This document shows positions 57,036 through 59,590 of a DNA stretch of 64,000 bases, piece by piece; the first letter of the stretch is position 1; each line of letters begins with the position of its first letter. This DNA comes from Planosporangium flavigriseum (GTDB taxonomy: Bacteria > Actinomycetota > Actinomycetes > Mycobacteriales > Micromonosporaceae): contig NZ_JAATVW010000006.1 of the NCBI RefSeq assembly GCF_011947225.1, positions 62,001-126,000 of the forward strand, in the 5' to 3' direction. The notes below the pieces were generated by a model. It was not told the origin of the DNA. It was given only the letters and a program-made list of their open reading frames with translations, and ran no database searches. The position numbers and the translations under genes were made by a program.

Positions 57036-57131
57036 GGAGGCGTTCGGGCAGCTGGTGCTCCCCACGGTCTTCAAAACCGATGTGGCCCGGGATCCGGGTC
57101 AGGCGGGTTCGATTCCCGTCCGCCTCCGCCA
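57036..57131 (+). tRNA. selC: tRNA-Sec (UCA)
   Basis: The 96-base gene starts GGAGGCGTTCGGG and ends CGCCTCCGCCA with encoded CCA. The anticodon loop CTTCAAA (57069–57075) holds TCA at 57071–57073. It has the long variable arm (CCCGG–GAT–CCGGG) and T arm GCGGG/CCCGT expected of tRNA-Sec, and it resembles actinobacterial selC closely. One mismatch (T57043 with C57120) is at the eighth acceptor pair. Confidence 0.96.
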
Positions 57132-57272: not shown

Positions 57273-57510
57273 TCAGGCGCTGTCGTCCTGCTCCGACAGT
57301 CCGAGGGCCTCGCCGATGCGGCGGCGCGCCACGTCGTCCTGACCCTCGATGCACTTGGCGTAGACCTTGAGTAACACGTGGACGCTGTGCCCCGCCCACT
57401 CAGCCACCTGAGTAGCCGGTACCCCGGCGTTGAGCCACAGTGACACGGCCGCGTGCCGGAGATCGTACGGACGCGCCGCTAGCGGCGATTGCTGTTGCGG
57501 CCACCGGTTG
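57273..57510 (-). pseudogene. Truncated tyrosine recombinase (integrase) C-terminus
   Basis: The minus-strand frame ends RPYDLRHAAVSLWLNAGV, AEWAGHSVHVLLKVYAKC, carrying catalytic Arg, His and Tyr of phage/ICE integrases. Similarity stops upstream of about 57510, so the N-terminal two thirds are missing. It lies 140 bases from selC, a classic integration target, and is probably a relic of an element that inserted there. Confidence 0.8.
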
Positions 57511-57599
57511 CGGCGGGATCCGCTGGTGGCGTTCGTGGTGTCTCCTGGCACCGCCGAAGAGGGGCGGCTTACGCCGGAGGCGGATGGCTGGCTGGCCAT

Positions 57600-57992: not shown

Positions 57993-59021
57993 TCTAAAAC
58001 TGACGATCATCGTTGACACCTGGGTCTCCGGAGACTACGGAGACCATCTATGTCTAAGTCCACCCCTGCGCTGGATCGTGAAGCGAAGCGGCGCCTGGCG
58101 ATCATCCGCCACGTCGAGGAGGTCACCGGCAACGTCGCGCTGACCTGCCGCTACTACGGCATCAGCCGGCAGGCGTACTACATCTGGTACCGCCGCTACC
58201 TGGCCGAGGGGGTCGACGGGCTGCGGACCCGGTCGAAGCGGCCCAAGACCTGCCCCCACGCCACCCGTGCCGAGGTCGTCGAGAAGATCCTCTACCTGCG
58301 GCAGAACTACCACTTCGGCCCGGCGAAGATCGCGATGTACCTCAAGCGCTACCACGACATCACGGTCAGCCACTCCGGCGTGTGGCGCATCCTCAAGCGC
58401 CTGGACCTCAACCGGCTGCCTGCCTCGCAGCGCTACAAGCGCCACGACAAGCGCTGGAAACGCTACGAGAAACAGCTGCCCGGCCACCGGGTCCAGATCG
58501 ACGTCAAGTTCATCGAGCCCATCGGCGCGACCAAGACCGGCCGCCGCGGCGGGCGCAACAAGTACTACCAGTTCACCGCGATCGACGACTGCACCCGGCT
58601 GCGGGTGCTGCGCATCTACCCGCAGCTCAACCAGAAGACCGCCATCCAGTTCCTCGACTACGTGCTGCAGCGGCTGCCGTTCCAAGTGCAGGTGATCCAG
58701 ACCGACAACGGCGCGGAGTTCCAGACGGCGTTCCACTGGCACGTGCTCGACAAGGGCATCGCCCACACCTACATCAAGCCGCGCACCCCGCGCCTCAACG
58801 GCAAGGTCGAACGGTCCCACCGCATCGACGCCGAGGAGTTCTACCGGATGCTCGACGGTGTCGTCATCGACGACGCCGAGGTCTTCAACGACAAGCTCCG
58901 CGAATGGGAGGACTACTACAACTACCATCGCCCGCACGGCGGCCTCGACGGCCAGACCCCCTACGAACGCCTCAAGCAGAAGACCACGACCCAGGCGTAA
59001 ACGATCACCGTCACTCGCACA
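57993..59021 (+). mobile_element. IS481-family insertion sequence
   Basis: The 1029-bp element is flanked by an exact 15-bp direct repeat. Imperfect inverted repeats lie inside each end (58001–58023 and 58991–59013), matching at 19 of 23 positions. The outer ends read TCT on the left and ACA on the right, near the TGT/ACA ends of the family. It encodes one transposase. The intact duplication suggests a fairly recent single insertion. Confidence 0.88.
58050..59000 (+). CDS. IS481-family transposase
   Basis: The 316-residue protein has an N-terminal helix-turn-helix region (about 20–75, CRYYGISRQAYYIWYRRYL) and an rve DDE domain with Asp in QIDVKF, Asp in QTDNGAEF and Glu in GKVERSHR. The frame is complete. 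The stop codon lies within the right inverted repeat. Confidence 0.95.
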   Translation: MSKSTPALDREAKRRLAIIRHVEEVTGNVALTCRYYGISRQAYYIWYRRYLAEGVDGLRTRSKRPKTCPHATRAEVVEKILYLRQNYHFGPAKIAMYLKRYHDITVSHSGVWRILKRLDLNRLPASQRYKRHDKRWKRYEKQLPGHRVQIDVKFIEPIGATKTGRRGGRNKYYQFTAIDDCTRLRVLRIYPQLNQKTAIQFLDYVLQRLPFQVQVIQTDNGAEFQTAFHWHVLDKGIAHTYIKPRTPRLNGKVERSHRIDAEEFYRMLDGVVIDDAEVFNDKLREWEDYYNYHRPHGGLDGQTPYERLKQKTTTQA

Positions 59022-59036: not shown

Positions 59037-59590
59037 ATCGGGGAGGACTTTCTGTACATCTATCAAGGCGGCCCGAACCGGTCCGCACGCGCCGCCGGCT
59101 GGGCGCGTGCCGCCGCTGCCGCTGTCGCTCTGCGGCGTCACGCAGAACGCCCGCCGTCTGGCGCGGAAAGCGAGAAGCCCTCGGGGCCGCCGAAGCACGG
59201 ACAGCACCAAGGGCACCTGATCGAGGTGAGCCGGCAGCCGGCCGGCGGCGAACTGGGCACGCGGCGTGACAGACACGCCGCGCCGTAGCGCGCGCCGCGG
59301 TCCGCAGTGAGTGGTCGGTGTGGGCGTCCCCCGGTGCCCGACTCTCCACGCCACCCGCCCGGCGTCAAGGGCGCTTCGCGTCGGCTACGCCGATGGCCTC
59401 CGGCCACCCTTGACCCCGACCGGGCGCCGAGGATCTTGGCACCTGTCCGGGGGACGGGGAAGGTACGGTGAGCCGGAGGGTCTGTCTCCATAGGCGGTCA
59501 CTGGGCGAGTGCCTAAGGGGCCAGCGCTACGGACACGCGGGTATCGCCGCTGAGCTGGTCGCTTCCCAAGAGCCCGAGGGAACCGGCCTA
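59037..59590. other. Gene-poor stretch with a cloverleaf repeat
   Basis: No gene is supported here. It contains the folded repeat at 59364–59414 and, at about 59431, another GATCTTGG core as in the terminators at 4459 and 6053. Confidence 0.5.
59364..59414. repeat. 51-nt fully paired three-armed cloverleaf sequence
   Basis: The outer stem GTCAAGGG/CCCTTGAC (59364–59371 and 59407–59414) encloses three adjoining hairpins with no unpaired junction bases: CGC-TTC-GCG (59372–59380), TCGGC-TAC-GCCGA (59381–59393) and TGGCC-TCC-GGCCA (59394–59406). Each loop is T-N-C. It is not a tRNA. I believe related sequences are dispersed in Micromonosporaceae genomes, from memory and not checked. Confidence 0.8.

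Follow-up and report, generated by a model that had tools for sequence, protein, structure and literature searches.

A 51-nucleotide sequence of Planosporangium flavigriseum that folds into a three-armed cloverleaf forms the top of a longer fold-back DNA element, of about 130–150 nt in all. The element folds as DNA, is conserved at the DNA level, and has a fixed place and direction in RepSA-bearing AICE-type elements and in MOBP plasmids. Our preferred reading, to which we give a probability of roughly 40%, is that the cloverleaf is a DNA signal of mobile elements that would act when single-stranded, in a replication or transfer role like that of sso or Frpo sequences. We prefer it because the covariation is of a kind expected only of DNA, the hairpin caps are hyperstable, and position and direction are fixed beside rolling-circle and conjugative initiators.

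The cloverleaf and its surroundings in the window

The window, the 64,000-nt stretch of DNA that was analysed, carries the cloverleaf GTCAAGGGCGCTTCGCGTCGGCTACGCCGATGGCCTCCGGCCACCCTTGAC at positions 59364–59414, exactly where the preliminary description had placed it. Folding as DNA and as RNA gave the fully paired structure claimed there, with the minimum free energy and centroid structures both being a cloverleaf with an 8-bp outer stem, hairpins of 3, 5, and 5 bp with loops TTC, TAC, and TCC, and a junction without any unpaired base. None of 200 dinucleotide shuffles matched the DNA fold energy of -18.3 kcal/mol (z -5.5; RNA fold, z -3.6), in agreement with the claim that such folding is very unlikely by chance. 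The DNA energy model gives -18.3 for both strands and thus does not separate them; on the minus strand, the loops read GAA, GTA, and GGA and are closed by C-G. A covariance model trained on 22 copies scored the cloverleaf at 79 bits, and the next best match in the window, its own reverse strand aside, reached 14.6 bits. The flanks pair imperfectly in the DNA fold (about 59325–59363 with 59415–59456). The features are as follows.

57036–57127, plus strand: tRNA-Sec (Rfam RF01852, 73.3 bits)
57276–57599, minus strand: tyrosine integrase relic, C-terminal part (Pfam Phage_integrase, E 0.009, below the cut-off)
58050–59000, plus strand: IS481-type transposase gene (Pfam rve_3, rve, LZ_Tnp_IS481)
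59325–59363, plus strand: left arm, imperfect lower stem, beginning CGTCCCCCGGTGCC (DNA folding; arm pairing in relatives; unit of ~145 bp in the genus)
59364–59414, plus strand: cloverleaf core (sequence, folds, covariation in relatives, covariance model score)
59364–59371 with 59407–59414, plus strand: outer stem of the cloverleaf (folding)
59372–59380, plus strand: hairpin 1, loop TTC (GAA on the minus strand)
59381–59393, plus strand: hairpin 2, loop TAC (GTA on the minus strand)
59394–59406, plus strand: hairpin 3, loop TCC (GGA on the minus strand)
59415–59456, plus strand: right arm, imperfect lower stem (DNA folding; arm pairing in relatives)
59438–59448, plus strand: bulged motif GGCACCTGTCC in the right arm (family pattern roughly GGC-ANYT-ATC-GGG)

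An Rfam scan of the window at the gathering threshold left the cloverleaf unmatched and reported only the tRNA-Sec and a glycine riboswitch (1422–1517), which fits the earlier statement that the cloverleaf does not look like a tRNA or a known riboswitch.

The order tRNA-Sec, integrase relic (minus), IS481-type gene, cloverleaf (plus) mirrors that of AICE elements. The tRNA-Sec beside the integrase relic is a candidate attachment site of a decayed element; a second att copy was sought in the window and none was found. Over 66 aa, the relic shares 65% identity (E 1.5e-19) with an integrase that lies beside another cloverleaf (locus L101), on the same side and in the same orientation relative to it. 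The IS481-type gene between relic and cloverleaf probably represents a later insertion.

Conservation as DNA and distribution

Many copies with strong stem covariation were found, rather than the single copy without covariation that the preliminary description had named as evidence against itself. Among 22 copies, nine pairs have two-sided changes, amounting to 22 double-sided cells compared with 3.7 in shuffles, and no cell has a one-sided change to another standard pair. In 159 distinct copies, parsed so as to favour no mismatch type, 3240 of 3378 pairs (95.9%) are Watson-Crick and only 10 (0.3%) are G-T. The remaining mismatches fall mostly into a few stem types, chiefly with an altered outermost base (CTC.../ATC... 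stems). Since RNA helices normally drift through G-U, the near-absence of G-T indicates that the pairing acts as DNA, not RNA.

The loops are conserved as a class. TNC loops, in which N is any of the four bases, occupy hairpins 1, 2, and 3 in 144, 139, and 134 of the 159 copies, and the closing pair of hairpins 2 and 3 is C-G in every copy. All three loops are TNC in 111 copies and GNA in none, and a few copies, mostly from Caulobacterales, mix TNC and GNA on one strand. A TNC loop closed by C-G is a C(GNA)G mini-hairpin on the opposite strand, and d(GNA) mini-hairpins, studied by Hirao and colleagues, are exceptionally stable in single-stranded DNA (PMC4686876). Pairing extends beyond the core: in 65 dereplicated copies, the flanks form a mean of 28.4 bp, compared with 14.7 bp when arms are swapped between copies, from which the unit length of about 130–150 nt follows.

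The element is dispersed, as had been supposed. A second copy is present in the same genome and further copies occur in the genus; DNA similarity searches found copies in 29 of 151 genomes of the family, and the covariance model matched 92 of 394 genomes of the class (about a quarter of the sampled actinobacteria), with 1 to 14 copies per genome. The core query matched 46 plasmid records, which are nearly all actinobacterial plus Acidiphilium, with partial matches in Sinorhizobium, and a pattern scan of GTDB genomes added Caulobacterales and one Armatimonadota bin. We rejected a phage origin, as phage records gave just a partial 27-nt match and viral contigs one match. A literature search for the cloverleaf sequence returned nothing relevant.

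Placement on mobile elements

The preliminary description overlooked three things: the GNA caps, the extended fold-back, and a fixed link to the genes by which mobile elements replicate and transfer. In the 16 genomes that hold RepSA, a pSAM2-type rolling-circle initiator, 28 of 39 cloverleafs have a RepSA gene 0.8–2.2 kb to their right on the minus strand, in the same orientation in 28 of 28 cases; these are not 28 independent events, because the RepSA loci are related (71–92% identity among eight compared). In the 1579-bp plasmid pD03b, which also encodes a CopG protein, the cloverleaf lies 28 bp past the stop codon of a rep gene whose product resembles Rep_trans rolling-circle initiators (E 1.8e-4, below the Pfam cut-off). 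Plasmid pSD9660b carries a Replicase/PriCT initiator, which is not of the rolling-circle type.

MOBP plasmids of about nine genera (Micromonospora, Verrucosispora, Curtobacterium, Cutibacterium, Glutamicibacter, Gulosibacter, Miniimonas, Cryobacterium, and Leifsonia) share the gene order relaxase-mobC (minus), cloverleaf (plus), with a small plus-strand gene close by. In the plasmids read, a separate hairpin followed by CTTGCT lies directly upstream of mobC and looks like an oriT. The cloverleaf is about 150–850 bp from this hairpin, on the opposite, leading side. The leading side of D26b encodes SSB, VbhA-Fic, and AbiEii, with the genes pointing toward oriT, which is the arrangement of published leading regions (PMC11541004). 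The Cutibacterium acnes plasmid pTZC1, which carries erm(50) and tet(W), has its cloverleaf on the leading side of mobC (NZ_LC473083.1:17978-18029).

This architecture resembles two known kinds of signal. Like sso sequences, including sso1 of ICEBs1, which has three stem-loops just downstream of the relaxase gene (PMC4595007), the cloverleaf is non-coding, multi-hairpin, near a relaxase or rep gene, and in fixed orientation on mobile elements. It differs in being a joined three-way fold with GNA caps that is also chromosomal, and the likeness is one of architecture. With Frpo/ssi promoters, it shares the leading side of MOBP plasmids and a long imperfect fold-back, yet it has no established conserved -35/-10 and is not consistently upstream of a T-strand gene; the text of the Frpo/ssi paper names no actinobacterial example (PMC11541004). 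Some copies from the genus have TTGAC within the stem and xANNNT hexamers after it, but by inspection the pattern does not extend across the family; we set aside a fixed promoter made of TTGAC and a -10 hexamer, which is suggestive in the genus only. Streptomyces telomere palindromes also form hairpins with GNA-type triloop caps, whereas the cloverleaf is non-terminal and a single compact structure.

Under the single-stranded reading, the exposed strand would fold back on itself as a long, imperfect stem that ends in three mini-hairpins with GNA caps. This shape would be recognised by a factor of the host or element, possibly RNA polymerase, a primase, or a replication protein, and recognition would prime or promote the conversion of single-stranded DNA that has been transferred or displaced, as at sso/ssi or the F-plasmid Frpo promoter. 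Chromosomal copies, including that of the window, may be what is left of such elements or the outcome of their secondary spread. A broader proposal, a little more tentative still, is that the copies constitute a family of structural signals in single-stranded DNA that spans the actinobacteria and has not been described before. Its members would be common to AICE-type elements, MOBP plasmids, and small plasmids of the rolling-circle type, would be read by a conserved host factor that establishes incoming or displaced single-stranded DNA, and would have spread to chromosomes too. To our knowledge, conversion of single-stranded to double-stranded DNA is poorly understood for actinobacterial conjugative elements and rolling-circle plasmids, and few such signals have been described. 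The cloverleaf, a compact recognisable structure found from skin bacteria (pTZC1) to soil actinomycetes, is a directly testable candidate for a conversion signal and could serve as a marker for decayed mobile elements in genomes.

Several observations temper this reading. The strands appear to conflict: the T-strand of the MOBP plasmids, as deduced from the order hairpin then nic, has the TNC loops, whereas in pD03b and the RepSA elements the GNA loops are on the sense strand of rep. To explain why chromosomal copies lie among ordinary genes, and why Streptomyces has inverted pairs and giant palindromes, either mobile spread or another function must be invoked. The presence of a cloverleaf at only 28 of 66 RepSA loci, the relatedness of those loci, the initiator type of pSD9660b, and the below-cut-off Rep_trans match of pD03b also count against it.

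Alternative explanations and gene context

Mobile spread is the core of the best-surviving alternative, which we consider somewhat unlikely: a non-autonomous fold-back element (MITE- or REP-like) moved in trans by an enzyme acting on folded DNA, with plasmids and AICEs as vehicles for hitch-hiking. It would account for copies being scattered between genes, with as many as 14 in a genome, for the ~145-bp unit that recurs with similar limits at unrelated loci within the genus, and for inverted pairs in Streptomyces and Actinomadura, including two equal-scoring copies around a DUF222 gene. Against it, random insertion would not be expected to leave copies in one place and direction relative to RepSA and relaxase genes, and unit length varies between lineages. 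When empty sites were sought in Micromonospora and the genus, unit limits were obtained but neither a clean empty site nor a target duplication. There is no recurrent transposase; the Y1 (TnpA-REP) transposase PF01797 is absent from four of the six genomes tested (G001, G292, G295, and G282), copy-rich ones included. The term "REP-like" used in the preliminary description therefore holds as a description, since the cloverleaf, like REP/BIME sequences, is a short palindromic repeat of intergenic regions that sometimes occurs as an inverted pair. It fails in the sense of RAYT-driven, an identity that we rejected because several multi-copy genomes lack RAYT; the cloverleaf further differs in its three-hairpin head and its fixed sites on plasmids and AICEs.

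Two half cloverleafs broken within the structure (L010, G001:C18:128400, and L011, G001:C52:56411) suggest insertion or recombination at the cloverleaf. Two Actinomadura species have a DUF222-HNH (13E12-type) gene bracketed by inverted cloverleafs at a spacing of about 2.4 kb (L157:2455-4946, where the copies score identically, and contig NZ_BCQT01000015.1, L218 and L169); pair and gene together are a possible mobile unit. Streptomyces sp. CB03234 has inverted pairs inside giant imperfect palindromes of ~1.4 kb (L184, L189, L214, and L223), which are repeated in this one genome and have no coding gene called within them.

It is unlikely that the cloverleaf is instead a double-stranded protein-binding or cruciform site that serves plasmid establishment, recombination, the nucleoid, or regulation independently of single-stranded DNA, although the protein-binding cruciform of the preliminary description is one of the readings that we retain. 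Such a site would fit the Watson-Crick-only covariation, the random orientation to the nearest genes (for dereplicated copies, a simple gene caller gave 16 divergent, 16 and 13 tandem, and 9 convergent arrangements), the few copies with mixed loops, and the inconsistent strand use between element types. A two-stranded cruciform has no need, however, of the single loop polarity shared by most copies.

Far less probable is that the cloverleaf is part of the transfer origin itself, as an oriT or relaxosome site. It adjoins relaxase-mobC in all MOBP plasmids inspected, but those read have the separate oriT-like CTTGCT hairpin beside mobC, and cloverleafs also occur on elements without such a relaxase; we therefore rejected oriT itself. 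Least probable of all is an RNA structure (terminator, leader, or small RNA): although the sequence also folds as RNA and many Streptomyces copies lie near the 3' ends of genes, the rarity of G-T, the zero one-sided changes, the missing T-tract, the random gene orientation, and the lack of an Rfam match at the gathering threshold led us to reject riboswitch, leader, and structured RNA as well as the (intrinsic) terminator proposed earlier; convergent neighbours are the rarest arrangement.

Clustering of neighbouring genes revealed lineage-specific settings. Streptomyces copies are accompanied by DUF397/XRE genes and Actinomadura copies by DUF222-HNH genes; in AICE-like elements the neighbours encode an integrase and FtsK, and on plasmids a relaxase. 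Micromonosporaceae copies, and likewise Streptomyces copies, lie among ordinary genes. DUF222-HNH was rejected as a general partner, since only a single cluster, comprising about nine loci, contains it. Several Micromonosporaceae cloverleafs have a second GC-rich hairpin repeat of about 115–125 bp at a distance of 200–560 bp (L130:6481-6608; similar in L132, L134, and L138:6263-6376), apparently at the 3' ends of genes. Six Streptomyces cloverleafs (L106, L124, L177, L185, L199, and L216) lie beside genes whose sequences resemble those of Vsr-type endonucleases and helicases in a defence-like island.
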